Shown in pieces: positions 147-60,100 of a stretch of 64,000 nucleotides of DNA. A program made the translations under genes and the position numbers. Source of the DNA: Antedon mediterranea (lineage: Eukaryota > Echinodermata > Crinoidea > Comatulida > Antedonidae); the NCBI RefSeq assembly GCF_964355755.1, contig NC_092670.1, positions 40,473,795-40,537,794 of the forward strand, in the 5' to 3' direction. Every line of letters starts with the position of its first letter. The first letter of the stretch is position 1. Below the pieces are notes generated by a model. That model was not told where the DNA came from. It saw only the letters and a program-made list of their open reading frames with translations, and did not search any database.

Positions 147-1753
147 CCCTCAGATCGAATTAAAGGTCCTCAAAGGCAGTACAAGAGCAGAGATGGTGGA
201 ATCATTATTACAAGATCAACCACCAACAATGCCGCTGCCATTCCAGACCCTCCGGTATTTTATAACTAATTCTAATAATCAAATTCAAAATCCAATAATG
301 TCATTTTACTTCAATAATAAAGTCCTATTCATTTCATTTATTCATGGTCAAACTCAGTAAAATATAGTCCATGGTTTGAAATCATTTTCGTTTGTTTAAA
401 GTTAAAAATTCACATAAAAATTAGTCAAAAAGGTTAAAATTTGGTAAAATACGATAAAATACATCGTATAAAGACCTCTAAAGTCAGAAGTTCTTCACAA
501 AATAAGACACAGAGAAAAAACATTCTCCAAATATAGACTGGAAACTCTGACAAACATTTTTAAAAATCTCAACTTTTTCAGATTAAAACTTTGTTGTTTT
601 CTTAGCACTACTTTCAATTGATTGTAAGGTTTCTTCATTTTACTAATTTGTTTAGGTTTTACAAAAGCCACAAGAGATCCATTCAGATCAAAAAAAGAAT
701 TCAGTAAGTAATTTGGTTTATTTTATTTTAAGTTAGCAACAAATTTAGAATCTAAGACCATGGCGCTGAAAGGCTTAGAATTCATATTGCAATTCATCTT
801 GTCTAAGTCTAATACTATGCTTAAGAACTTTATTGCAATCCGCCCCAGGCCCATACCCATATTAACATTTTTAATTCCAGTCTTCATCTATTTCGTCGTA
901 GCTGTTTCTAAGTTGTTTTAATTGTCTTTGTTTCTGTTAAATCAAGCTGTAAGTGGCGGATTTGTTTCTGCTGCTGTTTTTGATTTTAAAATAAAAATAA
1001 AAAATATTTGCTAGACTTGTAATTTAATTAATTTATTTGTCCTTAGTTTTCTAGCTTTGTAAAATTAATTTTTTTTTTTTAATGACCATACACCCAAGTG
1101 ATAACTGAATACAAGGTCATAAACCTAGAATTGATGAATTTGGTCCAAAATTAAACCAAACTCCACTTTATGCAAATAATACCTCCATATAATAAAAATA
1201 CTAATGTTCAATTTATATAGCGCAAAATGCAGTTTGGCTCTAAGCGCTGAACAATCAACAGAAAATGTTATAAAAGAGAAAAAGATATATGTAGAAAGTA
1301 GAAATTAAAAAGGGATTTGACGAGTGACTCAGCTTTCCTGATTGAGTTTGAAAGGGCGTTCCAAAGAACAGCAGCTGACCAGGAAAAGGCGCGTTGTCCA
1401 TAATATTTTGTTGAAGGCCGTGTAAAGCTCTGTCTTCACTGTAAAACTTTATGTGACAACAAAATGTGATGTGCCTATGATATATGGACATATCACTACC
1501 ATAATTGGGTATATCACACTTTTTTAAAAAACTAGTTTGATAGTGTAGACAGAGCTTAAGTATAGGCCTGAATAAAACCTATGATAGGTCGTCTCAATAT
1601 CGAAGTTGAATGGAATCAATTTGTAGAACTTTCTCAATTTTATTGTTTTCGTTTCAGGAAAAAATGCATTCAACTTTGCCACCAAAAAGTAGAGGAGCAG
1701 CAGCTCACATTGAGAACGAAATCTTTGAAGGGATTGGTGATGATGACCTTTAA
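147..1753 (+). CDS. 3' end of an unrecognised gene (three last coding exons)
   Basis: Three exons join in one frame: 147-254 (acceptor ctacag, donor gtattt), 656-703 (acceptor tttag, donor gtaagt) and 1658-1753 (acceptor tttcag, stop TAA at 1751). All junctions are phase 0, giving the last 83 residues of a protein whose start lies left of the window. The peptide opens PSDRIKGPQRQYKSRDGG, continues through Thr/Asn/Ala- and Lys/Gln-rich stretches, and ends in an acidic tail, ENEIFEGIGDDDL. No domain, membrane segment or signal peptide is visible, and I do not recognise the family. The acidic C-terminus is distinctive enough for a database search. The stop codon lies in a near-perfect hairpin (see separate entry). 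The exon calls are solid because three independent splice pairs keep frame; the function is unknown. Confidence 0.7.
1205..1415. repeat. Probable LINE 3'-end fragment
   Basis: The stretch begins with a motif like TATAGCGCAAAATGCAG and later contains GGGCGTTCCAAAGAACAGC. Both resemble the 3' non-coding portions of CR1/L2-like LINEs common in marine invertebrates. No reverse-transcriptase frame remains. It lies in the last intron of the gene ending at 1753 and directly abuts a family A MITE. The assignment rests on recall of similar sequence, not on an alignment. Confidence 0.4.
1424..1558. mobile_element. Family A MITE, copy 1
   Basis: Inverted termini AAGCTCTGTCT... and ...GTAGACAGAGCTT enclose the family core: a GTGATGTGCC word, a degenerate ATATGGACATATCACTACC and the sequence ACTAGTTTGATAG. 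It is non-coding. The copy is intronic, 100 bp upstream of the last exon of the gene ending at 1753. Confidence 0.75.
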
Positions 1754-3329: not shown

Positions 3330-3701
3330 GTAAATAATAACTTAAGTAATCAGTGTTTTAGTTAACATACATTTCATTTAGTGCAACCGTAATTATAGTT
3401 TTAATACCTCTCATAATAGTCTTATTCTTAGCCAAAAAATCGTTGGCCTAGCCCTATTCTATAATAATAAATATGCCTTTTATGGTACGACTGTCCTGGC
3501 TGGGGGTTGACCTGCTGGCCGAGTAGTCCCACCTAAGCCAGGGCGGATGGGCTAGACCTACTCTACATGAATCTTGAAATGAATAGCAGACAATGTTTTA
3601 AAAAAGTAATTAAGGCTAGGCTATGCTTATCATAATCATATGGATCTTTTTTTTTACCAACAGAAGATCTCCACTTCTTCACAGGAGATTACATAAAAAA
3701 G

Positions 3702-6700
3702 ATGTCATATCCTGATACCTTTGAACCACAATCTAAGATGACAAGTTTGCTGAATACAAATGGTTACTTCACAGTTATATAAATAGTATATCATATTGCC
3801 AAATCAATAAGTATTTCAAACAGTATTGGAAATATAGCACACACACAGTGCCATTCATTGTTTTGTTTGAGGTTAAATAGAGGTTGAATTTTCTATCTAA
3901 ATTAAAAACATTTATTATAATTCTCTTTTTTTATATAGATGTTGTGTCTGAATCATCTATAAAACGAACACCACTGCAGACTCTTTCACCAAATTCACCG
4001 TCACTGCTGCTACGATCAAGAAGAAGTTCCACTAAACGTAGATCTCCACTTTTTGATAAATTTGTCCAAGTGTCTCAATCGACGCCAATCTGCAGATCCA
4101 GTTGGCAATTTAACGCAATAAACGACAACAAGAAACAAGATGCTGTTACGTATACCAACCTGCCGCTCTGGGACACTCCAATCACTTATACCAAGACTCC
4201 AGAAGTCTCGGTCGGTTCTTCAAACTTCTCCCTGTTGGAGGACATGTCAATTCCAGAAGTAACCACCTCAATACCATCTTTGGGTCACATCAACATGCCC
4301 TGCGAAAGCTTTGAAATTCACAATGATGTGGATAGTTCAAAATCCTCGAATGAAATCTGCAGCACGTGCGATGAGAGCTTTGTAAAGTCTGATAACAAAG
4401 AAAACGATGTTGTACCAAGTTCTTGTCTCTACGAAGACATCAGTAGCGATGATAATGACCTGCTATTCCATTCAAGGAACAGCAATTCCAAGATTTATCT
4501 TGTGCCAGCACTAGAAGATGACATCGCCATAGAAAATCTAGAGGACAAAGAACCTGCATCATGTGAGACATCATTGACCCGTCACACTACTTCAAGCTCA
4601 AACATGTGTCAGACCTCAAGCTCAAATGAGTGTTCTGCATCATCAAGTCTCAATAAGCCCCAAATATCAAGTCTTAGTGCGAGTCACACTTCAGATTCAA
4701 GTCTCCAAATGGCAAGCTCAAGTTCTAGCAGCAACCACCAAACATCAAACTTAAGCCTTAGTGAGAGACAAATGCCGAACTCAAGAAGTGATCATCAGAC
4801 AACATCAGACTCAAGTCTTAGTGAGCTTCAGACATCAAGTCAATTTGGTGACAATGAAGATAGTGACGGTGGTGGTGCTGCTGCTGATCTCTCGCAAAAT
4901 GCAAGTTGCAATAAGTTTGAGCAAGAGGAGGCATTTGAATTGTCTTTGGAAGAGATTCAATACTTAATTGAGAATGAAATGTTCCTCCACAGTCCAACAG
5001 GACCAAGACCGGTCGCTTGTTCATCCGATGGATACATCCCAGTTTCTTTGCAAGCTTATGAACCAGAAGAAGGAGAAACCGATCAAACTGATGAATCATC
5101 TCTTCTGCAAGACGACGATATATCGGATAGCTCACTCTCACCCGGTGAAATTGGATCAAGTTTGTTCTCAGATAAATCTAGCACCTCCAGTGAAAGTGGC
5201 AGGAGATCCAGTACCAGTTCAAATACACAAAATTTACGTCCAGCATCTGACAGTCTCCATGACAACTCGGCGAGTCAAGAAGATTCCTGTTCAGGGGAAT
5301 CATATGAGGTAGCAAGTCTTACATCCGATACAGAATCACATCATGATGTTGAGGAAGAAGATGATGATGACGACTTTAAAACGGCAAATATGACGTTTTC
5401 CTCTCCAGAAGAAACGGGCAAATCTCAATATTTCAAAGATTATATAGGTGTGTGCGATGATCTGTTAGCAGTGATAGGGGAGTCTGACATGGGTGTAAGC
5501 AGTTCGGCAGGTGTCCAAATTAGAGAAGACCTTCCATTAACGGATAATGTTGCAGAATCTGGGGTTCTGTGTGATGAAAACTGGTCTCTGCGAGTTCCAA
5601 CCGACTCCTTGACCTACCAAAATGAAGTTGACTTATGGGAGTGCCATGCCCTGCAAAATGATCTTGTGGATTATTTTGGAGCTACTAATAATGATCTCGT
5701 GCCCAATAATTTGACCAAAGATACGGACCTTCATAAGTACAATAGTGCTCTGCAACAGGACGTAGAGGATCTTGAAGAACCATCACATAATTTGGGTGAA
5801 ATATTTGAAAATGTGAACAGTGACGTTCATGACGCCGAGTCATGTGTGCTCTCAACCTATGAACCTCTGGAATGTGTTATTGAAAACCTGTGTTTCAATT
5901 TACCAGATGATGTTGAAAGTCAACTGAAAATAAAAGAACAACATTTTTCTTCAGCTGATTGTCATCAAGTCATCACTGACAAAAAAATGGCCTGTAATAT
6001 TGAGAATTTGGAGAAACCTGCATCAGAAACCGGCAAAACAGAATTAGAAATGGAGAAACTTGCATTAGAAATGGAGAAAACTGGATTGGAAATGGAAAAA
6101 CCTGCATCGGAAATGGAAAACTCTGCATCAGAAATGGAAAAACTTGCATTAGAAATGGAGAAAACTGGATTGGAAATGGAAAAACCTGCATCGGAAATGG
6201 AAAACTCTGCATCAGAAATGGAAAAACTTGCATTAGAAATGGAGAAAACTGGATTGGAAATGGAAAAACCTGCATCGGAAATGGAAAACTCTGCATCAGA
6301 AATGGAAAAACTTGAATTAGAAATGGAGAAAACTGGATTGGAAATGGAAAAACCTGCATCGGAAATGGAAAACTCTGCATCAGAAATGGAAAAACTTGCA
6401 TTAGAAATGGAGAAAACTGGATTGGAAATGGGAAAACCTGCATCGGAAATGGAAAAGTCTGCATCAGAAATGGAAAAACTTGCATTAGAAATGGAGAAAA
6501 CTGGATTGGAAATGGAAAAACCTGCATCGGAAATGGAAAACTCTGCATCAGAAATGGAAAAACTTGAATTAGAAATGGAGAAAACTGGATTGGAAATGGA
6601 AAAACCTGCATCGGAAATGGAAAACTCTGCATCAGAAATTGAAAAACTTGCATTAGAAATGGAGAAAACTGGATTGGAAATGGAAAAACCTGCATCCGAA

Positions 6701-7583
6701 ATGGAAAACTCTGCATCAGAAATAGAAAAACTTGCATTAGAAATGGAGAAAACTGGATTGGAAATGGAAAAACCTGCATCGGAAATGGAAAACTCTGCAT
6801 CAGAAATAGAAAAACTTGCATTAGAAATGGAGAAAACTGGATTGGAAATGGAAAAACCTGCATCGGAAATGGAAAACTCTGCATCAGAAATGGAAAAACC
6901 AGCATCGGAAATAGAAAAACCTGTATCGGAAATGGAGAAACCAGAATCAGAAATGGAAAAACCAGCACCAGAAGTGGAAAAAACTGAATTGGAAATGGAG
7001 ACACCAGCATTGGAAAATATTGAATACGTTCATTTGTTAGTTGATGATGATGATGATGATGATGAATGGGAGAACATTTCATATGATGACGAGGATTGTC
7101 TTCAAGAAGCCATTGCTGCTGATGGCACCTCCTTGATCAAGAATGAGAACCAGACAGCAGTTCAAAACGAGTACATCAAGGGTAAGTAAAATATACAAAT
7201 AATTATTATAGTAGAACACTAAACACGCAAAACAAGGATGTATACACAATTGCGTCCAGGTTGGAACTAAGCTTTAGGGGTGTCTCTTAGTTAAGCGTGG
7301 TTCCCACTAGCGACGCAACACAAGGATGTATACACAATTGCGTCCAGGTTGGAACTAAGCTTTAGGGGTGTCTCTTAGTTAGGGGGTGTCCAAGGGTGGG
7401 GAGTTTTTGTGTGGCTTCAAATAAAACCAACGTGTAACATTTTTTTTGGTGATTTTTTTTAAAATCAAATTATTTCTTTTTTTTTCTTCTGTAGACTCTG
7501 ACCGTCAACCTGAAGGTCGTCTAGTCCAACAGAAAAAGAGCATACCCAGTGGTCATACCAAGTGGTCTTGTGCAATTCTTTAA
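3702..7583 (+). CDS. Large acidic Ser-rich protein with 28-residue repeats and CaaX tail
   Basis: Proposed exons are 3664-3762 (ATG at 3702; weak donor ATG|gttact), 3939-7181 (acceptor tatatag, donor gtaagt) and 7495-7583 (acceptor ctgtag). All junctions are phase 1, giving about 1,130 residues. The order is: a basic Ser/Pro-rich N-terminus (KRTPLQTLSPNSP..., RSRRSSTKRRS); a Ser/Thr/Gln-rich tract; acidic stretches; ten copies of a 28-residue unit (residues about 728-1007); an Asp run (DDDDDDDEW); and a C-terminus WSCAIL that fits a Cys-aliphatic-aliphatic-Leu prenylation signal. The 28-residue unit consists of four heptads (EMEKLAL, EMEKTGL, EMEKPAS, EMENSAS), so a coiled or extended charged rod is possible. 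No enzymatic domain is visible and I do not recognise the family. Exons 2 and 3 are solid. The start exon is less certain: an in-frame ATG at 3884 also exists but lies in what looks like the intron's pyrimidine tract. Confidence 0.7.
6059..6898 (+). repeat. Coding minisatellite, ten 84-bp units
   Basis: Ten head-to-tail 84-bp units encode LALEMEKTGL...SEMEK with very few differences. Units 4 and 7 have LEL for LAL, unit 5 has EMGK and EMEKSAS, and units 7-9 end in EIEK. More degenerate heptads flank the array on both sides. The near-identity at nucleotide level points to recent unequal exchange or gene conversion. Because 84 is a multiple of 3, length changes stay in frame. Confidence 0.95.
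7232..7381. repeat. Duplicated 62-bp segment with family B end
   Basis: A 62-bp segment beginning ACAAGGATGTATACACAATT occurs at 7232-7293 and again at 7320-7381. The stretch between them contains TGGTTCCCACTAG, the terminal motif of foldback family B, and both copies carry TTGGAACTAAGCTTTA. It is therefore a rearranged, partly duplicated family B element inside the last intron of the acidic repeat gene. Confidence 0.7.
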
Positions 7584-9436: not shown

Positions 9437-10151
9437 TATCTATTTAGATATATTATTTTAATATTATTTATTACTTAAACTATAAAATAACAATCAATAT
9501 AATTTCTTATGACCACTAATTGTATTGCAAACTATACTAGTGGCGCTATAATAATCTTTGTTTTACCTTGCATACTGACCTCCCTTTCTAACTTAATTCT
9601 AGTCAGTCAAGTTTATTTTTTTCTTTTCTATTTATATGTCAAAACACAAACGCGTTGCTACGTGCGTTTGCCTACGCGGGCTGAGACGTCGACTTTTGAA
9701 TAGGGAAAATCGAATTCTATAAAAAAACAAAGTGTATATTAACGACCACTTTATCGCGGAGCAATTGCTATAAATAAAACTAATCTATTGTTAATTAAAG
9801 TAGCAGAATATTAATTATTCTGTGTGACAAACTTGTTTTAAATCATAACATCATTTTATAGAAAACGCCTCCTACAAAGAAATAATATCGCCTACGCGTG
9901 TGAACAATTGTATTGTTTACGCACACGCTGCGTAGATGATCCGAATGTTGGGACACACTTTGTTCTTAGCGACCGTTCTTATTATCAACAATCTAGATTG
10001 ATGGTGGAGGTCCATCATTCGTCGTCGTATCACTGGTGAAATATTTGATCTGTTTTGGATACTATAAACAATCACAGCCCAATATCGAAAGACTTTTATT
10101 TGCTTAGGATAGTACATAATATTTGTACATAATATTTTGTTAAGATGTAGA

Positions 10152-13100
10152 ATGGGATCTAGCCCCAGTAAAGCAGTGACAATAGAACAAGTTTCAAAAC
10201 AAGAATCTAATAAAAACTCTACGATGACGTCTTCTGCTGTAGATAGGCCTAATCGGTTTGAGGCACCTACACGTTATGGAAATACTGAAACAATTACGCC
10301 TAAAAATGCTACTAAACCAGCTACTGTTGACTATGATGATTGGGATGATGGAAGTGAAATGACCAAACTGACGGATGAATTAGACGAACTTTTAGGAATA
10401 CCACTAGACGTAAAAACAAACGCAAGGGTACCGGAACCACTGGGATACCAAGGGGGAAATATTCCAATACGGCCAAAGAAACAAGAACTTGGAAAGGGAA
10501 ATGCTTGGAAGATGCCTGACGAACTTTTAGAAAGGGAATTAAATGCGAGACAGAAGAGGATTTTAGATAAAATGAAAGCATTGATGATTGCATGTGAGGA
10601 AGAGGATGTTGATGTATCACCGTGGATACATTCAATGGCTAACGAAGAGGAGGAGGATGTACAGCAAAATACATCACAACTGGTAGGTTTTAGTCATGGA
10701 CAAATGTACGTGCATGATATTTTATATGGTCAATGTGTTTTTGGTTGAATGTGTTAGGTCTAGGCTAGGGCTAGTACTGACTTAAGTAGGCCTAGGCTAG
10801 TTAGTGTAGGCTTAATATTTCAATATGTAATTTATTGCGTTTGTTTAGTATACCGTACGTGCATGCATTGTTGTTCATGAATGTCAAAACAATTCTACTA
10901 TACATTTTTACTGCAATAACGAATAAGTTTGAGGCAGCCAATCACAATAAACAGTTATTACCCAGAAAGGGCTTCAATTGTTAGAAACCTAGGCCTAGTT
11001 AAAGAAAAAAGAAAATGTAGTTATTGCAGTAACTAAACAGTAGGCCTATAGTAGAATGTTCGACATCGTTCATTCTTTTATTTACGTGAACATGTAATGA
11101 CGGTGTTGGTCAGTAAGTAACAAGTAATTCTAGTGTTTTACAACTAGCACCGCTATTTACTTTTGACCTTTATAAAAAAAACATATTGACACTTGATTAA
11201 TTTGACAACCCCGCACGGTATATACACTGATTATATTCTTAAAACTTGGTTACCACCACTAGGACCCAAAGCAAAGACGTAAGCGCAACGCAAATAATTT
11301 GGACCATCGACAAGCGACAGTTCAAATAAAATCAATCGCTTGTGACGGTCAAATTACTTGCGTTGCACTTAGGTCATTGCGTTGCCTCCTCTTAATGGGA
11401 ACTTCTAAACTATTAAACTAGTTTCACAAAAAAAAAGTGTGAAGTGTCCAAATATGGTAGTGATATGATATCATCATGTCCATATATGGGCACATCACAT
11501 CACATAAAGTTTGATAGCAAAGTGTAGACAGAGCTTTAAAACTAATCCTTTCTTTCAATTTAGGAGGATACGTCTAGGTTTGATACTAGGAAATTTAAAG
11601 AAGCAAATGTTTACAAAAAGGTTAGAGTCCAGTTATAAAAGTTTATTATTAGTCACATTAACATAACCAAGAAAACAAATATTTTATTTTATCAATTAGC
11701 AATATCTTTATGAGCGAGAACAAGTAGGCATACAGACACATAAAATTTATGAGGTGCGCGTAAATAAAATGTCGACTTTACGCGTCTCTTTCATGTGTTT
11801 TCAATATTGAAGATTGAGAACAATTAAAGTACGAAGTGTAGGCCTAAGCCTACTTTAATATAAACCATACGTTATTAATTTCAAGATACTACCTGGAAAA
11901 TGTTCAAACATTAAACCCAAGAAAAATACCAATTTGTAATACTCCTTTGTTACCTAGAAACACGTACCGGTAAGATGCTCCTTTTAAACGTTAATACATG
12001 TTTTATGATCTATCGTAGACGTCGCCATGGTAACAAATGGCGCAGCAAATTGAAACAGAGGTGATTTAGAGATTCTGTACATTATCAGATATTTTTTACG
12101 ACTAACATGTTTTATCGTATTAGTATACCACCCACTGAAACAATGTAAAGTCTTTCCTAGCACTAGATCTTTTAATAACAAATTACTTTCCCACTAAAGC
12201 TTTGTTTCCACTGTCCAGACGCAACTCAATGAGGTAAATAAAACGTAAGCAATTTGACCAATCACACGCGATTGATTTTCCGAACTGTCGCACTTGTGAT
12301 TGGTCACTTCCGTTGCGTTGCGTACTAGTGGAAACCAACCAAGTTTAACCTACTTTCGTGTCTCTTCTATGTATCTACTGACTAATGTTCATTGTTTTTC
12401 TTGTGTTTGCGTTCAATTATCTGTGATAACCATTTGTAGGCCTATAACCTATTCTATTTTGTATATAGTGATTACTTTGCTTTTAAATCAAAAATGTATT
12501 TTTATCTTGCTATATAATTTATGATGACGGCGATTTTCTTGACGATGATGATGATGTAATATTCGTAATAATATCTTTATGATGACGCTATTATTCGTCA
12601 TCTTTTGCGAATGATGCTATTTTATTCTTCCTCTCTTGATGAAAATGATGATGAGAGATTTGTAATGTTTTTGCTGAAAATGATCATGAGAGATTCGTAA
12701 TTTCTTGTTGAAAATGATGATGAGAGATTTGTATTTTTTTTTGCTGAAAATGATCATGAGAGATTCGTAATTTTTTGATGAATTCGTCCGATATTAATAA
12801 TTGATGAGATTAATAAAGGTTTTTCAAAGTAACTACCATCTTTCTCTGTAGGTTGACAACAACTCATCTTCAATATCAGTTAATCGTCTAAGCAGCCACA
12901 AATCACTAGAACAATCATCATCTGCAATGTAAGTGTACGCGCGCGCGTGTTAATTAATATAGTTTCAGTTTTCAGTTTCAGTTTTTATTTTCCAATAAAA
13001 CAAGTGTCATGAATATATAGCAAAAATGGAAGGATGACCAAAAAAGAGCAAAGCTCGTACAGTATTTGGCCACCTTAACAAAATAAGTTGATATATTACG

Positions 13101-28400: not shown

Positions 28401-31400
28401 CTTGTTTAGTATTCCATAAACGTACAGTAGTATTTTTAGCGTGGATTCACGTCGCTGAATCAGGTCAGGCTAGCTTGCTGTTGGCATTTGTCGTACATGT
28501 GAAGCCACGGATTGTGACTCTATTGCCTATGTACATTCACAATGTAATTTGTCAATTCTGTAGTATGTCATTTCAGCTGCTATTTTTTCAAATGTTAATT
28601 AGGAAATTTTATGCAGAACAAAAGAATTATTTTGTACAGTATGATACAAAAAGATTAAGATAAAAAATAAATTCTAATACAAATAATTTGTTTACATTAC
28701 AAGTAACTTGTTTTAAACTTGTACACCTTCCATGATAGTAAATCACATAGTACAGTTTTTTTTAATTTTTTTTTAAATTTGTAATTAAGCATGGGCTAAG
28801 CCAAATTCATACTGTACTGTAATCCTTACAGTATGTCTGTACTGCTGTAAATAAAGTACAAGAGTCATTAATATTTTATTCATTTTCTGTATATCACTGG
28901 ATGGTTTTCAGTTCTCTTTTGTGATACTGTATAAATTATGTTGATGCACACAACATTATAAATATTAGAAACTTCATCTTATTTTGAATAAGGAAATAAA
29001 ATGTACAAAAACTGCAAATTAATGTTTACCAGTTGGCTATAGAGTACTGTAGATAAACTAAACTAGTTAATTCCTTTTGTTCTGTCTTTATGACAGTATC
29101 TACTATCTTTTTCATTAGTATGTTCTGATGTCAAATCATAATACTAAAGTATTCTTAAAAAGTGTACATCATACTTGTACTGTACAGTAGTTTAAAAAAA
29201 AAAATCGTAATTTAAACAAATTTAAAATGATTAATATTTATATACATGTACAGTATAAAAGGAACCAGTCCTTGCCGACTAGGGACCACTGATTTCTTAA
29301 CATAGTAATGTAAATATAACCGATGTATACAAGTATAAAATATAAACTAAAAATTAGTATGTATATTGTATAAATATTATTTAATTTTGTTTTAGTTGCT
29401 GGTCAGAAGCGGGCGTTCCCAGGTGACATCACCGATGGTGGTCCTACTTCCAAGAAGTTGTATGGTAAGTTGATGAGCTTGCATCCATTAACATTTACAG
29501 TTAAGGTCAGGTGCATGCAAACATTTACAGTTAAGATCAGGTGCATGCAAACATTTACAGTTAAGATCAGGTGCATGCAAAAATTTACAGTTAAGATCAG
29601 GTGCATGCAAACATTTACAGTTAAGATCAGGTGCATGCAAACATTTACAGTTAAGATCAGGTGCATGCAAACATTTACAGTTAAGATCAGGTGCATCCAT
29701 TAACATTTACAGTTAAGATCAGGTGCATGCAAACATTTACAGTTAAGATCAGGTGCATGCAAACATTTACAGTTAAGATCAGGTGCATGCAAACATTTAC
29801 AGTTAAGATCAGGTGCATCCATTAACATTTACAGTTAAGATCAGGTGCATGCAAACATTTCTATTGATCATACATTCTATTCATTCTAATAATTATCGAT
29901 TTATAGTTTCAACTATTTTTACCTTTAACTAAATATTCATGCCTTTAAAAATCTTCTTTTGTTTGCCAAACAAAGGTGGTTCAATGTTTGGGAGACTTAA
30001 CTGTAATATTTTAAATATTTTTATCCATACAACCGTGAATGTGTATTCAATTTTAAAAATATTAATATTATAAATGAAATATATATTTTCCTATTTCATA
30101 AATTGGTTTTCAACGAAAGAAGAAAGTTACTTTATAAAATGATTGTTTATATCCTCTATGACAAAGAAAAAGATATGGTGTGATGTCTTATCAGTGCTAA
30201 TGTATACCAGCATTTTATCTTGATTCTTGCATATCATTTTGTTCCTAATATGGTAGTGCTATACCCAAATATGGTAGTGCTATACCCAAATATGGTAGTA
30301 CTATGCCCAAATATGGTAGTGCTATGCCCTAATATGGTAGTGCTATACCCAAATATGGTAGTGCTATACCCAAATATGGTAGTGCTATGCCCAAATATGG
30401 TAGTGCTATGCCCAAATATGGTAGTGCTATGCCCTAATATGGTAGTGCTATACCCAAATATGGTAGTACTATGCCCAAATATGGTAGTGATATGCCCAAA
30501 TATGGTAGTGATATGACATCATCATCTCCATATGTGGGCACATCACATTTTGTTGTCGCATAATGTTTTATAGCGTAGACAGCGCTTAAAACAAAGAAAT
30601 TGTGTATTTGTATTTAATAATAGTGATTTGTCATGGCATTTCCTTATCATTCAGTATACGGTACATGCCTATGTTTTCATACATTTTGTTTATATAATTA
30701 CAGTGCTAATAATTATATGGAAAAGATTTAAGATTCTTTATTGGTCCATGACTGGAAATCTTTCTGTTGGCCATTATAAATTTAAAATACATTAAAACAG
30801 CAAAACGCCAAAATGAAGATATGTGAAGATATGTGTGTCATTAACATTTCAAACAATGTCCCCTTAACAGGGTTGTACTGTGTAATTGTTGAACAACAAT
30901 ATTTAATTTTTGTTTTAATTTATTTTAATAATTTATTTAGTTCCTGACTTCCCAAAAGAAGACCAGGTAAAGCTTGTAGACCAAGTACGACGTCAGATAC
31001 CGAAAAAAGACATTCACTCGTACAAGTCGCAAGTGAAGAAGATTGACTGGCGTGAGGTCGCTTTTGGAACATACTCAGACAGAGAATGTGAACGCCAGTG
31101 GGTAATGCTTCAAGAGAATGTAAGTAACAAGTTTTTTTCTTTTATTGATAATAAAAGCATTTATAATGCTCCATATATCCAATCAATGATTGCTCATAGG
31201 CACGGTACATACATTTATAAAACCATTATAATAATTAAAACAACTTTAGGAAACAAGTTAAAATACCATAACAGTCTACTAAAATTCATAATGACATTTC
31301 ATAACATCTTCATTTCCAAAAAAAATCCTTTTGACGAAATTAGCAGTCATATCGGTACATCCATGGGAAAAGCACGGAATGCATCCAAAAATTGGATGTG

Positions 31401-34400
31401 TTCAGGACGAATTCTTGATGTGTCGCAGTTGAGAAGGTGTTTTCACACAGATCATAAAGAAGTTTTATGATTATGCATACAGAGTAGCCAAACAAGCGTG
31501 TTGCATTATGGGATATGTTTCGATCGAAAACTTTGACTGGAAATCAAAGTTATTTTTGGAACAAAAAAACGTCTGTATTTCAGTTAAATGATTTTTTTTT
31601 TCTACTAATTTTTGGTGAAAGTATTATAATACTTCAAAATGAATGAAATTTTTTCCAAATCTTTTTTTTTTTTTAGAATTAGTCAAAGGGACAATACATC
31701 TTTAACATATTTATTTCATTTCCATATTCGTTATTGTCTTCTGTAAGTTATCATGTTTATGCAACACAAGATATATCTCAGGTTGTCTTTGTTTAATTAA
31801 CATGAACATAACATTAATCAATGTCTTGTCTGTTACAGATTCGTAAATATAAGACGCTGTCTGACGTATCTGCTGAGATTTTAGTGAACATCAAGGACCC
31901 GAATACGAGCCTTAAGAAATGGGTAAATGAAGTTAAAATGTACTGTTAGATTATGTATTGCTTTTGAGGATAGACATTGCAAATTTGGACATGATCAATA
32001 ATAAAGTACTTCTTGAATAACATCTAAATATAAATTGTAAATTTATGTAGAAATGTTCAATGATAATGCAGTACATAAATGACATTTAAAAAAGTTTGTT
32101 TCTTATCACACTTTAATAATTAGGAGATTGTATCCATTTTGTTTATTTGTAAAAATCAAAGCATTTTGAAGTGTGGAAATTGTGGATATAAATGAAACAT
32201 CGGAAGAAAAGAATTTAGGACATTTTAGATCTGAAGAAATGTTTGTTTTGAGTTTCCAATTTTCAGAAAGTCTGGTATTGGGAGATTTGACTGTACTACT
32301 TTACACTATTGTAGTCTTATCTTGTAAAGTAACCTACATCTATAATTTCAAATTTAAATGAAATATGACCGTGTATTTTTTTAGCAATCTCATCCAGAAA
32401 TGCCAAAGAAGCCGATGACTCCATTCTTTCAGTTCTACCATTCCAAAGCGAAGAAGTTACGAGCGAGATTTCCAGAACTCTCACAGATTCAAATTACTCA
32501 AAAATGTTCACAACTTTTCAAAGAACTATCGGAAGAAAAGAAGGTATACACTTGCATTATTAAGCCATTTGGATCCAGGATTCAAAAAAGGTTGTTAGGG
32601 TAATGGTAAAAGTGCTGAACTTAATCTAATGTTTTAAATTTGTCATTGTACCTTTTCGAAATGATACAGCTGTGGATTCATGCCAGCCATTTTAGTTTAA
32701 TAAGTTGGAAACTACAATTAATTCAAATAAACTACATAATAAATTATTATAAAAGTCATGCATTAATTGATAAATGAGATGACAGATTTATAAATGTATA
32801 CATTTTCATTTTTCAGCAAAAGTACATATCTCTGTATGAAGAACAGAATGAACAATACAAAGGAGCACTTATTGCATTCAGGTTTGTAATTACAATAATA
32901 TTCACTATCAAACTAGTTTGACGAAAAAAGTGTGATGTGCCCAAATATGGTAGTGACATACCCAAATATGGTAGTGACATACCCAAATATGGTAGTGACA
33001 TACCCAAATATGGTAGTGATATGACATTATGTCCATATATGGGCACATCACATTTGATGGTGTAGACAGAGCTTTATAGGTTTAATTGGTGAATAAACAA
33101 TAGTAATGTAAGGTTTGAGATGCACCATGTTTCCACAGGAAATAAAGCTTAAGCTCTGTCTACACTATCAAACTTAATGTGACCAAAAAAAAACTTCCTC
33201 AATTGTACTTTATAATCGTTTGAGAAACACATGGTACACTGCAGACATGACTATTGAAGCTACATGTTAAACCAATTTTATAACATACATAGCCTCATGT
33301 TATTTGATAGAGCTTCAAAAATATTGTATCATTTTCGGTTTTGAATTTAGACTCAAGTATCCAGAGTATGCTTTATTCTCAAGTAAGAAACATAATACTG
33401 GACCACCTAAGGCTAGTACACCATATCAGCTGTGGGCAGCTAATAAACTAGACAGCTACCTGGCCAAGTACCCTGATGTAAGTATTTTAAATGAAACCGC
33501 AATTATGTGCACATATTCCATTTTACAATACCTAAGCGCTATACACAGAAACACTGGCTGTATCTGACCAGAACAATCCCAACCTTGAGTACAGTCCCAT
33601 CGACTAATTAAAAAGATTGTTTTTCTTTGTAGATGCTGAAAAAGGAAAGAGATGAGAAAATGAAAGAAACATGGCGCAATTTGTCTGAAAAGAAACGCAT
33701 CAAGTGGATCAAGGCTTCCGTCGAAGATGATGAGAGGTTTGAGGTAAGGCCAAAGAGGTTACATATAAATTGGCAGACTCTTTGGGTAAGGATTAACCCT
33801 CCACTGAAGTTGTCCATTTGCTGTTAATGTATTTTTTTCTTATGTAAATAAATACCAATATAATGTATATATGTCTGTTACCAACACAAGTCAACTACTA
33901 GGCTTATAACCAGGATTACTGTATTCTGACACAAGGTCTAGGGACACTTAATGCCCATTTAGACAAAGGTCTGTGTGAAAGGTTATCACTCTGTCTAACT
34001 CCAATGATAGTTATACCCAAATTGTCATTTTTCTAAAGGCTAGCACTGTACCAGGCATGTCACCTGGAAGGAGCCCAGTGTATGCATAGAGTGTATATAG
34101 AAAAAGGTATGGGTATATATAGTAATCAGTTGTAGTTTCTCTGTTAAATAATTTTATTTATTTGTTCAGGGTGCACTTGAGGAATACTGCAAAGGACATC
34201 CAGATTACAAACCACCAGATAAACGACCAGTTCTTACAAAAGATGAATTGGAAATGAAAGAGAGATTTGATGGAAAGCCCGATAGGCCACCATTGTAAGT
34301 ACCAGTTTCTACTACAGTCAGTCATAACAGCATTTATTTCTTTTTCTCTTTCACATTTTTTTGTTACATAAAGTTTGATAGTGTAGACAGAGCTTAAGAA

Positions 34401-37400
34401 AAGTTATCTAGAAATAACAGTTTATACCTTTTCACACAGAACTGGATATGCACTTTTCTGCAAGGAAATGTTGCCTCTGCTTGGAGACGACGTACCAAAC
34501 AAAGATAAGTTTGTTGAATGTAGTTTGCGCTGGAATCAATTAGATGCGAGCAAGAAAGAAGACTATAAAGAACGTGTCGAGAAAATGCGCATTCTGTACG
34601 AACGCGAACTCAACAACTATGTTGGCAACTTGCCAGAAAATGAACAAGAGCGGTATCACGCAGAACTTAAAAAGTTAAAGAAAAGTCCTGCTGGGTCTGG
34701 TAGAGGCACCAAGAGCAAAGCCAAGGTATATTGCTTTTTTTAATTTTTTTTAAAATAATTTTTTTGTCAATTTCATTTCTTCATATGTTGGTTCATCCAT
34801 CATTATCATTATAGAATAATACTGTTAATATTTCAGTGTACAATTGATATTAGTACAATCTATACATCATTGGCAGCTTAACTGGAAAATTATTGTTATG
34901 TTGAACCAAAAAAATACATACACAATTGGTAGCTTAATCTCGGAAGACCATGCTAATTTACACTCTTGGGTCCGACACTATTTCACCAACTACTCAAATC
35001 TCATTATTCATATTCTTATGTTCTTGACTTATTACTATTATACACAAGTAAAACAAACAATGTTTGAATATTTAGAATGCGTCCTCCAAACCCAAGAAGC
35101 CTGTGTCTGCTTTGTTTCTGTACACAAATGAGCACAGAGCAAAATGCAAAAACAAGCATTCTGATTGGACGGACACTGAAGTCACACGGCATCTAGCCAG
35201 AAAGTTCAGTGAACTTCCAGATAAAAAGAAGGTAAGTAAATCTGTGTGTAAATTCTTGGTTGGGTGTGACTTGCTCAGCTGTCCCTTCACCACCTACTTG
35301 ATTTATATAGTTCTCATAATATTTTATTTTTTATCATTTCCCTTTTCCTTATTTTGTATCTCTATTGAGATACAGCCTTATATATATACTATTTTTATAT
35401 AATATTTGTTAACATTTTTAAAAATCCCTGCTCTGTTCACATTTCATTTATTATTCATCTCCATTGAGATCCAGCCACTGATCATATTGTCATTTTTGTA
35501 TCTCTCCACTGATACCCACAGCATTGTCATTTTTTCTGTGCTTATTTTATTTTGTATCTCCATTGAGAGCCAGCCATTGATACCCACAGAATTGTCATTT
35601 TTTCTGTGCTTATTTTATTTTGTATCTCCATTGAGATCCAACCACTGATACTGCTGCATTGTCTTTTTTCAGTAATTTGCCTTTGGATTTAAATTTATGT
35701 AACATTTTGAGAAATCCCTACCCTGTCACTTTGCTGTCCCCTAGTTGACCCTCTAGGGGCATAATACTTATATAGTATTATGACAGCTGTTAATGAAATC
35801 TAAAAACATTTCTTGATCAATAACCAAAAAGACATAAAGCTTCATTTTTTGTTACATTTGTTATCATACACTAATCATCCCACTCCCTTTGTTGCTATGC
35901 AACCGTGCTGAAATAGTTCTCCCTCTCCGATGAGTAAATATTGCCTTAGACGTTACTATGGTAACCCATCGGCTAAGTAAACACTTGACGGTACTAATTA
36001 ATAAAATCTCCAAAATGAATTCATTAGTATCGTGTTCAGTGACACCAGATAAGACAGTAAGTACACTCCTTGAAACAAATGTATCATATAATTTATCTTT
36101 TTTAATGTTAAAATTTGTTTTTATTTTATCGTCATTATTATTACATATTTGTTTTCTTTCAGAATAAATACAAACGGATGGAGGCTGAAGCAAGGAAAGA
36201 ACTGAATAACTCAATGTAAGTTACTTTGATTTTTTCCTTCGATTTCATAAATTAAATTCATTTTTACAAAATTAAAAAATTTCAATTGAAATAATTTCTA
36301 AATATAAGATTTAAAATAAAACAAAATATTGTATTTATTGGTATTTATATTTGTTTTCAATCTCAATATTTCTTTTTATATTCGGATTTACAAAATTTTG
36401 GGTTTCTTTTCTCTTTGTATATTGACAATTAAATGTGTTTGTTATAGGGACAGTACTGCACCGTTTATTGCTGATGGACGAAAGGTGTCCGCATTTGAGC
36501 TTTGGTCAAATACAAAACTAAACCATGTAATGGATGAACAGAAGGTAAGTTATCATTTCAAGCCTGCACCATGTCACATACTATGATAAACATGTATACC
36601 AATTTTGTTTGAATTCTTTTTTCTCTATCTGTCTGCATCTGGACCTAACATAGCTTAACTGTGATATATTTATGGAATTTTCGTTTTTATATTTATTATC
36701 TTCAAATTATACATATTAATGTTAACAAAAATCAACAAATTTAATGTTTCTATAAATGTTACACGAAAATAATATAATAATACGTAAATCTGGCGATTAA
36801 TGCATAATCCTTTAAGCACTTCACATTGCCCTTGAGTCAATAGTCCAACGTACAACACGTTGCGCCACATGCTATCACCTTAACATAGTTAATGTTGATA
36901 TATTTAATGACATACATTGCGTTACTAGAAACTGGATCTTTCAGTTATTACTTATTTTGGGTAAAAAAAATTGATAAAATGACGACATTAACTTTTTCTT
37001 CTTGTACAGGTTACAAAGCAGAAAGCATTGTTTATTCTGAAGAAAGAATGGGAAGCAATAGAAAAAAGTGAGAAGTCTCCATGGGTGAGACAGGCTGAAG
37101 CTATTAACAATCAAATTGAGGTATGATATTTTGGTATCAGTACTTCAAAAGTGTTTTAATTGGGTAGCTAACATAATAGTATTGATGTAATTGTACTTTA
37201 TGCAGCCAAGAGTTACTTACCTTTGTGTTAGTCAGAGTAGGACAAACAACAAGTAAATAAAATGTTTGTGTTGGACAAAATATAAATGAATTTAGTTTAT
37301 CGATGCTCTAAATTCTTTTTCCAAATTTCCACAAATTGTTTAAATAATGTGATATACATATTGATTATAATGGGATATACATATTGATTATAATGTGATA

Positions 37401-45709: not shown

Positions 45710-48119
45710 TGGAGTTTTTATCAGTGCATCTGTTGGTTTTTAAAATATCGTTTGTCTAGATTTGGCCTTGTAGGCCTACACATGAAATATAAAGTAATTA
45801 ATGTGTAGGAACAATTATATGAAGCATTTAATTACGAATGAATAATTTGTTTTCGCTCTACAAAAAGGCGTTTCTTCTATAAAACGATTATTGAAATCAT
45901 ATGTATTTGTTGTAAAATCCAAAAAAGTTAAAAATAATGTACAGTATTCACCGATCAGAGACGCACTGATTCCAAAAGGGCGCCCTCATTTTGTCGTTTG
46001 TCTTCCAATAGGGAAACATACATAGTAATCATTTTAATACATTATTACAGTAATAAATGTTATAACGAGATTATGCTATATGTTGATGGTGCTATAGTAA
46101 TATTATATTTATTAATTTATTTTATTAATTTCTTTTTATTTTAACAATTGTTGCTGACTTGCTGTGCAAGGTAGGCCCTACATGGGTTGAATTTATAATA
46201 TTATAATAGGCATGTATATATATTTGTAATAATTTCCTTATTATTTATATTAAATACATTTTTGAATTATTAATAATTGATTTAATTATGTTTCTTCTAA
46301 TGTTTGTTCTAAATGTACCTATAAGTACTCTCTATGTTATAAGTACTCTCTATGTTACCAAAGATACTATCTTTGCTATTAATATCATGGGCTTTGTTAC
46401 TAAATTATAGTGCGCCGCCTATAGCTCTTACATTTTCAATATTATGGACCTGCCCGCGCCCAATTAAATCGGATTTCCGCTCGCGCGCGTCGTCACGTGC
46501 ACGTACTTCCTTTCGTCACGTCTAGCAACGACACTGCGCGCATTTCCGTTTTTTTATTGGAAAGAATACACTAGTTGTTGATAGTTGTTTTCTATATCAT
46601 AACGTAATTTAATAGGCCTTTTAAATGATGTTATTTTTATTGTATTAAAAGAGGAAATTTTACAGTAACCAATACTCTCTAATGGATTGCTTAGTTGAAA
46701 AAAGTATTGAAAAGACACAACACTTAATTAACGAGGAGTTAAACATTTGGCCACTGACCTGCTCAATGTACTTTAGTCGTTACACACCCATTATGATCAA
46801 CCGGACGCATGCTATTAAAACGCTTCTGGAAAATGTAGCCTACAACATCCAATGTGACACAAAAATGTGCATCTTTTCGTGATCGGAAATTCATGGTTGA
46901 CATTTCCAATAATATAATGTCAGAAGTAGTACCTCTGATTTCAATACGTACATTTAATTGCAATGATCAACCATGCTACGAATTTAAATGCACGAATTGC
47001 ACGATAACATAAAATGGTGGGTTTTAATTCTGGCCATTTTGATTTTAGTTTTTATTTAACAGTAGGCCAACCTAGCTCCATCATGGCATTAATATTTATT
47101 ATCATTCATATGTGCTACTGCAACCTTCATCTTTTCAGTATTTTTATAAAGAATTTCATTCAATGCAGTATTTTTCGATCGATCTAGTTTGTTATTGAGT
47201 AAGTATCTCGGTTAATATACAAATGTACAGAATATACATAATGTATATAAATAAAACGACGTCACAGAGTTACGCCGGTAATAATATTATTGCAGAATAT
47301 GTTGATTGGCTTTACTCCCTCTCTCCATGAGCGGCGTGATATTGAATGAAAATATTGCAATATGCGCATGAATTTCATACTTAATTGTACTATGTTAGTC
47401 AATTAAACATTTATAATTAAACATTACGTCATAATGTTGTATGACATTCAATAGAAAGGTGGTGAAATGTACCCCCTCTCTCCTCAAACCGGTGCCGCGT
47501 ATTGAATAAGTATGTACAATTATTGGAACAGCCAATTTATTAAATCCCAAGCAGTTCCTCACAGCTGACAGGTCATTCGCCCTTTTTAGCACGTACTCAA
47601 ACTTTGAGTTCAGCCCGTATATTTGGTTAAAAAATGCATTTGCTTCTTAGCCAGAATGGGTGATTGCCTTATATTCATTTTTGTGATCAAATCAGCTATA
47701 GAAATATATTAGTTTTAATTAGAATTGGCCTCAAATTTTGACACGAGTAATAGCTAAATAAAACCTAAATCATAACAAAGAAACATGTGACCGCTGTAAA
47801 TACTTCCTGTTTTTATCGTGACTGTCAGTCATTTCACCGTCATCCAATCACAGCAAAGTGTGTGTAGGAATCGGTCCAATAGGAACGCTAATTGATAGTA
47901 CATCGCTTACTTTGCTCCGCCTACTGCAAAATGAAAACAAACACACGATTGGATTTTACCGGCGAAGTCGCGGCTTGTTGTCAAGCAAAAATAGGATAAT
48001 TTGAATCGAGTACAGGGGAGTAGAAGCTGTACTTTGATTTAGAAATACCATATTGTATTTATCACGCTTTTGGCTTTGTAGAAATAGGACTAATTTGTTG
48101 AGGGAGTGTGAGGTGAAAT
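45710..48119. other. Spacer and promoter region of the ZNF395/704-like gene
   Basis: AT-rich, except for a CpG-rich island-like block at about 46440-46560 (GCTCGCGCGCGTCGTCACGT, with CACGTG E-box and CGTCACGTC words). Two CCAAT boxes, at 47844-47848 and 47876-47880, lie 240-280 bp upstream of the ATG at 48120. No further gene is supported, although the CpG block could be a promoter of an unseen transcript. Confidence 0.5.
47844..47880 (+). promoter_or_regulatory. Paired CCAAT boxes upstream of the ZNF395/704-like gene
   Basis: CATCCAATCACAG and CGGTCCAATAGG place two CCAAT boxes 32 bp apart, about 240-275 bp before the start codon. This is a typical position and spacing for NF-Y-bound promoters. 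Confidence 0.45.
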
Positions 48120-51100
48120 ATGTACGGTTCCCGAAGAATGGCAAAACGATCCATAATCGGTACAAGAGTTGCCGCACCGTGGCAAGATGGGGTGTTCTAT
48201 CCCGGTGTGATAAAAGATGTCAAAAATCGTGGAGGAGGCGATACAACATATATAGTGCACTTTGATGACGGTTATGCAAGAACATACCGAGATATGGAAA
48301 TCGTAGGACCATGTTTTCAGCCAGTTTCAAAGGTACATCTGAAATTTAATCAGACGGTGTTCACCACTCACAATGGGCGCGAAATTTCAGGTGTTGTTCA
48401 GAAACACCGGAAACAGACGAACGAGGTGTTGATTGTTTTGAACGACGACGAAGACACGATGGTGAAGGTCAAATTGGATGATGTTAGGCTGCTAGAAAGT
48501 AGAAAATCTGCCCGTCTGGTGTCCAATGATACGGATTATTCGAAGCTTGCAGATATCTCGGTTACCGAAGCTAAAAAGAGGCATGTCTCGAATTATATTG
48601 ACGTTCCAAGCAGGTATGTCTATTAGTCGTTAGCTAAAATTTTAATGATGTGCATTGTTTTTGCTTATAAATACGTCATTCATTTTTTATATATGTGCAT
48701 CCCTTTAAATTTAATATTTCATAAATATTAAATTTAAAGGGATGCACATTATTATTATAGGATATTTATGGACACCTTGGAAACCCCCAAATTTCATGAT
48801 TGCGTCATACAAATTTATTAAGAATACGTTGTGCAATGTTGTATATAATTTTAATATAGTCAGCGAAAATTGTCTTCTTTTATTGGAAGATTGCCAATGT
48901 TTTGCAAGGCAATACAAAAAAAAAACTATACGGTGACGTCATTAACTCGTGTTGATAGCTGAGGAGATTATTTTTCCGTGCATGCTAAATTCGCCGCTCT
49001 GTTTTCATCGACTAATAAACATGTATTTTATAAATTTATTCCGTCATTAACGTTTAATAAATATTGCATTATACATTTAGAATGTTAAATTTGAATTTTG
49101 ATACGTAAAATACACGAAAAATTTCGTTTGTTTAATGTTTGTTAGCGGCGCAGCGACTGATTTGATAAACGTCATATTGGGTTTGTTTTCATCGTTCAGG
49201 GTTGTCAACTGCATCGACCTTGGCTCCGTTTCAACTTCTCTATCCATTGTATGGTAATATGTGAGGCCAAGCATTTTATGCAGTGACACAGCTAGCTAGC
49301 CTCTAGAGAACACAGCAGAAGAGTGTGTTGCGTTTTGCGATTATTCATGCATAACAAATGAGCTGTGGGCGCCGGCCGGTTTGTTTATATCTCAACTTAG
49401 CATGTGCTTAATTTGCATAGCTTCCTTATGGCTGTGTTGTTGCTAAACTGAGAGTTTGGCTCAGTTCAAGAATTTCATTTTAGATAATACTTTAAATTAG
49501 GTCATGACCTCAATATGAAATTACTTGTTATTGACATGCATAATAAATTTAAAGGGATATTTGGAAGGAAGAATTCATGGTATAATATTCATAAAAACCC
49601 TTTCTGACATTTCTATTTTTTATAGTGCTATAAAGATATACTATAATATCTCTAAATTTATAGATATGGTAAAACATTTATTTTTTAAGACATAAAATTA
49701 AATTATTTTGTGGTTAAATGATTTCAGTCCAAAAGCACCCAAAATAGATGAAGAACCATCAATGGAAGACGTTATGGCCGCTATGGTTCTTACGTCACTC
49801 TCGTGCAGTCCAGGATTCAGAAGTGGAGGTGAATTTTCAATTTCATTATATTTTCCTCCAATAATTCTTTTCAAATACAACATTCTTTTATTACTGTTGG
49901 TGGGGTGCTTTTTCCTCATCTTTATCATTATCACTGGATGGTTTACAATTTGTTCTGTTCCTGTCAATTTCTCTTTGTTATACTGTAATGCATCCAAAAT
50001 TATTAGAAAGAAAATTTAAAAAACTACAATTTAAACACATCCACATGTTATACAAACATGTTACAAAATCAAAACTATTTTAATTAAGTACATACCAAAT
50101 ATAGACAATATTATTTATGGAACAACAGTTTATATCTTGTTGTTATGATCATGAATGTTTAATATGGTCCAGCTGCCTTGTTTGAACAAGTCCAGACAGG
50201 TCAAATTTAGCAAGTACGCCCATTGTTTGAATTCAAAGTGAGGTTATGTGTGTACCTTGTTTGTGCAGCCATAGGCCACATCTATTTGTACAGCCATATA
50301 CCAAATTTATATAATGATTGTTTATTCAATAATTGACTCAATTAGAATATTCATGACCAATAATTCTCAGTGTTATCAGGGAGGCTAATGGCCAGCCAAG
50401 TGCTGATAAGAAGAGTGGTGTGGTTTACCTACAATTGATAGAATATACAGTGATGAGGTCATGGCCAAAAGACCTCCAAATATGGCCAAAATACATCCAA
50501 ATATGGCATTAAAATACAATAACGTCTCTGTGGTTTGATAACAGGATAATCAGTATAGAGTTTTCCTTTATTTTTGTTTGCCAAAATATATTTTAATACT
50601 AAATAAAATGTATGTATGGTGCAAGGCTATTTTGATCAAGAAAAAACAAATTTTAAAGAAGACAATGTTTTCACAAACATGAACTAGTAGAGACACTATG
50701 TACCCGGCCATCCATGTAATATAATTATATGGATTTACAGTGTTTGGGAAGTTTTAATAAAGAAATATGCTGCACATTGTCTATGAAAATAACTGACGAG
50801 TAAGTAGTAATTTTTCCATTAAATTTCAGTTGGGGAGCCACCTAGTCCATCTAGCCCAGCCCGCCATGGCCTGTCATCATCCTGGTCTCCCGCCACCATC
50901 AACGCACCACCAAGCAGCCTAGGTTCTGCATCCAGCGGTAGGTTTAGCTTTGATAACACAAGGTGGATCCCTTCTCCATCTGCATCTTCAAACAGCGATC
51001 GTGAAAGCCCGCAGGCTGGCACGGAAAAGATGGAGTATGAGGGAGGTAGCCGGTCCTTGGTGGAACCATCGTTCGGTCCACCTGCGCAGGTGTTTAGTTT

Positions 51101-57100: not shown

Positions 57101-60100
57101 AACAGTACATAGTAATACACAATTATAGTTTTGTAAATTGAAGGAGGAACTGAACTTTTGAATTATGAAAGTTGAAGCCTTCTTTATGTGTTTTTATTTC
57201 AAATTATTTTTAATAAATTACAATTCAATCAATTTCAATGTTTACTCCCTCAAAATAATTTTAAAAGATTAATTTGAAATTGCTTTTAATTTCTTTCTTA
57301 GCCATCCCAATTTGATAATACTTACTACAATTAAATGATTAACTTTAATACAACATTATATAACAAATATTTATATTTGTTATTATAATTTAAAAATGTG
57401 TATAAGACTATAACTTTATTTTTTTTAAATTAAGGAGCATTTCTGTTTCAAAATGTATCGCATACAGTTATTTTTGCAGGATATTAATATCATTATGCCA
57501 CATAATATACAGTGTTCTGAATTAAACGCTAATTATACTATTCAACCAATAATTACTTATTAGTTTACGGTATGATTCAAGGGAAGAAGAGTGAAGGTAA
57601 AAAGACAGTGAAAAGTTTTGACATTTTCAAAGAATACAAAACTTGGGAAAGTACAATTGTTGTCACATGATCCGGTTGACCTACTTCGGAACTGACAAGG
57701 ACACCAGCGCATCGTGGTTTCCCAGCATGCATTGTTGAATTGGATTAGTTTACATGACTTCCATTAATAAAAAACTTTTTACAACTTTGTAGAGCTTGTT
57801 ATTCTTCTGTAGGCTGTGTGAACAGGGCCTAATACTATACTATTATTTTAAAGGGATCCTTTATGATTATATAGATATAGAAACTGTGTGTGTGAACATA
57901 CCTTATAACATACTAACAACTATATAAAAAAAACATATTTTCAGGCCTTTCTTTTGGGTAATGATAGAGAGAGTTGAAACTATTATTATATAATAATGTG
58001 AACTTGACTTGATCTTATACTATCCATACTCAGTGATAGGTCCCTTATTATGGAGACTTCTTTTTTTTCGGAGGGGGATGGGGGTGGGGAATAAATAAAT
58101 TATCTGATTTATATATATAGTAGTATAGTCATCTATATATTATATAATGCTTCATTTTGTTGGAAATACCAATGAATGTAAAAATAAACTTAAACGTCAT
58201 TTATTTAGAAATTGATTATTGCATCATATACTTAAAGATAGAAACTGTGTTTGTGGTTAAAACCTGGTAAATTCCATAAATAAGAATATTAAATTAAAAA
58301 ATGCAAGTGAAGTGATATAGCCTTGAAAATGAAGGGGGAGGGGAAGATAACTGAGAATTTGTGCTAAACAATTAGCTAGTGAGGGCAATTATGTGCCCTT
58401 CAAATATATTTGGAATACTCGCACCTTGCTATTCTCTCTTAATCACAATGTTTTCATGTTATTTCCTATATTATCCCATTATAATATAATTTGTATAAAT
58501 ATTGTCATGATTAAAGTGAAAGGATGTATTGAGAGGTGACTTATGGTGTGATTAATTGTATACAATGGTTTATATTTAAACATGACTGGAAAACACCATC
58601 AACTATAAATAGCAAATAATGACGTACAATACAAGGTAGATTGCATAATATCACTGTAATCTCTTTCTAGTTTTACTTTACCACTGTTTATATTCTGTTT
58701 GTTTAGTAAAATCATCCTTTCAAAATTTCAGAATTTCTATGTTTTTTCTTAAAACAAATGATAATAAATGATACTTGACTTGACTTTATTTTAAATATAA
58801 AACACTTAAAATAAGAAGGTAAAATAGTAGAACAAAAATCCAAAAGGCATAACATTTAGATTGCTATAAAAAGAAAGTTATGATAAAAAATTACATTAAG
58901 GTAACAATTGTCCCACGTCTGTTCATAATAAACAGGGCAGTGACGGAGCTACAAGGCATGCAGACCCAACTCAAAAATGTCAATGCAAAAGATGGGAAGT
59001 AGCAGTTCATTTTACAATTTTTAGACCCTCTTCAAAATCCTTGATCAGCCACTATAGTCAGTCATAGGTACTAGGTACCGGATTCTGGTGCATTTTGGTA
59101 AAAAAAATAAAACTGAGAGAATTTGCAGGCACCTTGTCTTCATCTAAGAATAAAAAAAGCTTTACATTTTGTCTACCAAATTTGGTTACCAAATTTCATA
59201 TTTATTGGGTTGGAACCAGTGGTTGATTAATCGTCAGTAGGTTGAAAAAAAGAAAGTGTTTTATGCAACCCAATCTGCTCGTGTCTGAAAACAAGATCAA
59301 TCGTCCTCCCAATAACCAATCAAAGGCCATCTTTATCTGCAAACACTCACAGCTTAAATTTCATATCCAACAAAATGTGATTTATGGTGTTATCATTGAT
59401 ATAAAGACCATCTTTTTATCAGTTAAGCTCTTTCTACACCGTCTATCAAACTAGTTTGACAAAAAAATTGTGCAGTGCCCAAATATGGTAGTGATATGCT
59501 TAAATATGGTAGTGATATGCTTAAATATGGTAGTGATATGCTTAAATATGGTAGTGATATGCTTAAATATGGTAGTGATATGTATCATATATGGGCACAT
59601 CACACCTTTTTGTCAAACTGCTGTAGTTTGATAGTGTAGACAGAGCTTTAGATGTAGAGTTATCAGCACAGAAATATAAGAGAGTGTGATCACACTAACA
59701 CTCTGATTTGGATCAGCTTAAATCTGCTCCAGTCATGATTAAATCTAATGCATGTGAACACATCTTATGTTTTTTTTAGGGCTCAAAGAAATTGTATCAA
59801 TGTAGATGGAATAGCTGCACAAAGGTGTTGTGTACGCGTCAAGGAATTGAGAAACACGTCAGGACCGTTCATCTTAAGTGAGTGTCATTTGAATTGTCAT
59901 TTTAAAATTAAAATGAAAATGAAAAGAAATGACATAATCATTGTTTAACGAGGGAGTTATTTAGAACCTATTTTTCAACTCCCCTGTTTTAACTGGTTGC
60001 ATATTAATTAATTAATTAACACTATTAACGTATGGCTTAGTTTACTATGTAATTCCAATGTAAAGTTTAGAATATCTCAATATCTGAAGTAATTTGAAAA

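Follow-up and report, generated by a model that had tools for sequence, protein, structure and literature searches.

The window analysed here, a stretch of 64,000 nucleotides from the crinoid Antedon mediterranea, contains a predicted spliced gene, single-copy in its genome, that would encode an acidic, mostly disordered protein of ~1130 aa (Table 1). Its genome also gives a strong match to bindin (107 bits), in keeping with an echinoderm. A SNX17-like gene lies upstream, with PX and SNX17/27/31 FERM exons (L003:4067-4913 and window 148-1753) and a last exon that ends FEGIGDDDL at 1753, an end that we take to resemble the known C-terminal tail of SNX17. Farther along are an intact exon, MGSSPSKAVTIEQ onward, at 10113-10748, which belongs to no Pfam family and has a possible N-myristoylation signal (MGSSPSK); a run of HMG-box exons at 32385-36000, probably a UBTF-like (upstream binding factor) gene; a DUF4772/Tudor exon at 48117-48626, presumably as in transcription factors of the ZNF395/SLC2A4RG type; and, on the minus strand at 61409-62380, reverse-transcriptase fragments of a non-LTR retroelement, matching RVT_1 and also ALKBH8_N, as is often seen at the ends of reverse transcriptases.

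Table 1. Coordinates in the window of the predicted gene and of segments of its protein
Feature	Position	Strand	Remarks
Probable exon 1	3664..3762	+	ATG at 3702; gives MSYPDTFEPQSKMTSLLNTN, then D across the junction; least certain part of the model
Exon 2, main coding exon	3939..7181	+	About 1080 aa; stop-to-stop ORF of 1102 codons
Basic, proline-directed N-terminal segment	3941..4190	+	pI 10.1 over the first 90 aa
84-bp (28-aa) tandem array, 12 copies	6009..7016	+	TRF: period 84, 12.0 copies, 94% match
Acidic stretch VDDDDDDDEWENISYDDED	7031..7096	+	Direct reading; WxxI core resembling an LC3-interacting motif
Intron	7182..7494	+	GTAAGT...TTCTGTAG; phase 1; in-frame TAA at 7187
Predicted terminal exon 3	7495..7583	+	29 codons; basic flexible linker, C-terminal CAIL, then TAA

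Exon 2 makes up most of the gene. It begins with a basic, Ser/Pro-rich segment, continues through an acidic, Ser-rich, disordered body into the 28-aa array, and closes with a run of Asp, the sequence EWENI, and the end YIK/G. Splice sites were ranked with generic metazoan weight matrices, built from textbook frequencies, against all 3606 GTs and 3270 AGs in the window; by this measure the acceptor of exon 2 (3939) comes 108th among the AGs. Exon 1 is less secure. Its phase, 1, is compatible with exon 2, and its acceptor at 3664 ranks 27th of the 3270 AGs. Doubt attaches to the start at 3702 for two reasons: the exon's donor, ATG/GTTACT at 3763, is weak—809th of the 3606 GTs, top 22% in the window—and the frame is open upstream to the acceptor; it runs open 5' as far as 3636, with no ATG ahead of 3702. 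The stretch from the end of the SNX17-like gene to 3664 yielded no other coding exon containing an ATG, and the first in-frame Met within exon 2 is at 4244. If exon 1 is wrong, then the basic N-terminus is either lost or comes from some unseen exon, instead.

The original prediction held that splicing in phase 1 from 7181 to 7495 replaces an early stop with a 29-codon exon ending in CAIL, and frame, phase, splice ranks and a repeat within the intron all bear this out; on these grounds the junction is very likely. The G at 7181 occupies codon position 1, and the unspliced continuation reads GGT AAG TAA, which places the read-through stop at 7187-7189, exactly where it was said to be. Joined to 7495, the frame continues for 29 residues, DSDRQPEGRLVQQKKSIPSGHTKWSCAIL, to the TAA at 7581-7583, and the spliced protein ends ...KKSIPSGHTKWSCAIL (SGHTKWSCAIL). 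The donor, AGG/GTAAGT at 7182, ranks 9th of 3606, and the acceptor, tctttttttttcttctgtag/AC at 7495, ranks 2nd of 3270. Between them, as expected of an intron, sits a MITE-like short interspersed repeat (~7289-7337, in 7210-7385) that recurs elsewhere in the genome 40 times or more, on nearly all the large contigs (C1-C11). A local duplication of ~60 bp adjoins the repeat. Downstream of exon 3, AATAAA sequences of the polyadenylation type occur at 7765, 8354 and 8448. A CaaX-ending terminal exon is thus well supported as part of the gene model.

With a stop only two codons into the intron, retention of that intron would yield a clean, soluble protein ending ...YIKGK alongside a membrane-bound one ending CAIL. 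Splicing is known to decide prenylation in this way in human OAS1, where the p46 form, unlike p42, is supplied with a CaaX box (CTIL) by its terminal exon (PMC7612834). The parallel is in arrangement, a terminal exon that furnishes a CaaX-Leu box absent from the other reading; OAS1 has enzymatic activity and a known fold, whereas the crinoid protein is a disordered orphan whose alternative splicing is hypothetical. An isoform switch of this kind strikes us as improbable, since both splice sites are near-optimal, which favours constitutive splicing, instead.

Leu at the X position of a CaaX box favours GGTase-I, and CAIL is accordingly a tetrapeptide that predicts mainly geranylgeranylation. 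On the predicted splice, the Cys stands four residues from the C-terminus and is followed by acceptable a, a and X residues (...WSCAIL, then the stop). The end of exon 2 is unstructured in the AlphaFold2 model. CAIL is among the motifs whose affinity for FT and GGT1 has been measured, and GGT1 prefers Ser or Lys at -1 together with a small, flexible, hydrophilic linker of 11 residues (PMC1175975); work in plants also rates CAIL a substrate (PMC3017772). Compared by eye with these published rules, the linker KSIPSGHTKWS is suitably small, flexible and hydrophilic, with Ser at -1 and Lys at -3 and -11; the Trp at -2 is off-pattern, an untypical residue for a linker. The assignment of the box to the geranylgeranylation type agrees with the rules for GGTase-I and FTase in its Ser at -1 and in its flexible, basic linker (PMC1175975, PMC3017772).

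The genome is equipped for the reaction. Three loci, one each on C4, C10 and C11, match the beta type of prenyltransferase subunit, alpha-subunit repeats occur on C4 and C8, and ICMT is encoded as well. The genome's own G-gamma genes end in KCGIL and KSCTIV, so boxes of this sort are in use. G-gamma subunits and Rho and Rap GTPases resemble the crinoid protein in carrying a CaaL-type box behind a flexible basic linker; they are small, folded proteins, and share neither an exon nor similarity with it. We considered whether the CAIL exon had been shuffled from a G-gamma gene and rejected the idea: the exons of the G-gamma genes have other ends, and exon 3 has no further match in the genome.

Might the last exon carry its box by accident? 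The protein would then be a disordered acidic scaffold in solution, perhaps in the nucleus, and any lipid added to it would have no role. We rate this as unlikely, though to be taken seriously. The window has 3501 stop codons with 12 or more open codons before them. Of these, 4 follow a C-a-[VILM]-L ending, the CAIL gene included, and a null model of independent residues gives 1.7e-4; at a chance rate of ~1e-3 to 2e-4 per stop, several genes per genome will carry a CaaL ending by accident, which across a genome is not negligible. The gene, moreover, is an orphan and encodes no conserved domain that would call for attachment to a membrane. Against this, CAIL is a very good tetrapeptide and sits behind an accessible, hydrophilic linker with Ser at -1, so an exposed CAIL would probably be modified whatever its origin. 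Prenylation of the protein is, on its sequence, plausible.

The array is the other conspicuous element. Its unit is MEKPASE MENSASE MEKLALE MEKTGLE, and with 12 copies of 28 aa it comes to 335 aa and 48 heptads by TRF and by direct count, rather than the 280 residues estimated at first. Units 2-10 differ from the consensus by 0-2 bases, and the edge units, 1, 11 and 12, are degenerate. Among units 2-10, 7 codons differ nonsynonymously and 1 synonymously from the consensus; random single mutations of the consensus split 206:46. The numbers are small, and within them the array has the pattern of a recent expansion by unequal exchange, a young coding minisatellite on whose units purifying selection is undetectable. 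Intragenic minisatellites in general look like this: a unit that is a multiple of 3, central copies that are nearly identical, and degenerate copies at the edges. Repeats in human proteins, by contrast, are mostly ancient and stable (PMC3995336), whereas the crinoid array looks recent. Two ORFs that cross the array in antisense, 354 and 387 aa long, were dismissed as a side effect of the repeat.

The array had been proposed to form a flexible rod or tether. The tether half of that proposal has become part of our preferred explanation; the rod half is weakened. Heptad position a is Met in 41 of 48 cases, and position d is P in 16, T in 12, L in 10 and S in 10, with proline in at least one heptad in four (MEKPASE); this is not the regular, proline-free pattern of hydrophobic a and d residues that marks a coiled-coil rod, and prolines at this frequency make a conserved coiled-coil rod unlikely. 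The young units, free of detectable purifying selection, point the same way. Nor is the 21-bp period by itself evidence of a heptad coil, since separate arrays of one dispersed 21-bp minisatellite (AATATGGTAGTG..TATGCCCA; 30247-30515, 32940-33019, 59481-59582 and L003:4464-4568) fall outside any recognised coding exon. Single-sequence AlphaFold2 modelling renders the array as two long helices, at a pLDDT of about 70 that lends weak support to a rod, and nearly everything else without structure, the body at 37; single-sequence models of repeats are biased towards helix. On this model an acidic spacer with partial helix is plausible, and a stiff coiled-coil rod less so. Because the minisatellite expanded recently, the length of the spacer probably varies between individuals, and would not itself be conserved.

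Searches for relatives covered Pfam, PDB and the source genome (354 Mb, 18 contigs). In a scan of the protein outside the array, no Pfam family exceeded its cut-off; a match to KxDL, at 16.4 bits where 27.2 is the cut-off, is noise. The PDB sequence search returned no match, the genome holds no paralogue, and all eight matches to the array fall within the gene itself. A literature search for prenylated disordered proteins of echinoderms found nothing relevant. The description of the protein as unrecognised stands: judged by its sequence, within Pfam, PDB and its own genome, it is an orphan.

What it resembles by features is Kugelkern, a farnesylated protein of the Drosophila nuclear lamina with a C-terminal CaaX box, a putative coiled coil and an NLS (PMC5973253). 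The N-terminal segment invites the comparison. Its clusters KR...RSRRSSTKRR could serve as an NLS, and the first 110 aa contain 7 SP/TP sites, a density above that of all 2000 composition shuffles. One can picture a lamin- or Kugelkern-like protein of the nuclear envelope, imported by its basic NLS, controlled in mitosis by proline-directed phosphorylation, and held by a prenylated C-terminus at the inner nuclear membrane. By analogy this is a possible reading, and an unlikely one. Neither an intermediate-filament rod with a lamin-tail domain nor any other lamin similarity was found in Pfam (for the protein outside the array) or PDB, and the putative NLS depends partly on the uncertain exon 1. 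The crinoid repeat, furthermore, is a young, proline-bearing minisatellite, and CAIL is mainly of the geranylgeranylation type, whereas Kugelkern and the lamins are farnesylated.

We prefer to see in the protein a largely disordered tether or scaffold, acidic and geranylgeranyl-anchored, in which the spacer varies and the N-terminus is basic, rich in SP/TP sites and probably regulated by phosphorylation, and we give this reading about an even chance. A transcript spliced as predicted would be translated, and GGTase-I mainly—farnesylation being possible too—would then prenylate CAIL. CaaX trimming and methylation would follow, and the C-terminus would hold the protein on a membrane. A flexible, partly helical spacer, formed by the acidic body and the array, would present the N-terminal region, probably under the control of kinases, away from the membrane. 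This tether and the rival readings are not all mutually exclusive. A bolder version, which we consider doubtful, makes the tether lineage-restricted, its hypervariable minisatellite setting the distance between lipid anchor and N-terminus, and that distance differing between individuals or species. Long CaaX proteins outside the GTPases, the lamins and proteins of the CENP-E/F type are a small set; if prenylated, the crinoid protein would add to it a large, disordered orphan, and would exemplify how a fast-evolving coding minisatellite can determine the length of a membrane tether.

One further motif deserves mention. LC3-interacting motifs have in general a core of the WxxI type with an acidic flank, and DDEWENI, beside the array, matches this form. 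Coupled to a prenyl anchor, it could make the protein a membrane adaptor of the autophagy type, which we regard as very improbable: [DE][DE]Wxx[ILV] turns up in 4.5% of composition shuffles, so the motif is weak, and nothing else in the protein speaks for such a role. A KEN-box degron, considered as a sign of cell-cycle control, was set aside on similar grounds, KEN being present in 44% of composition shuffles.
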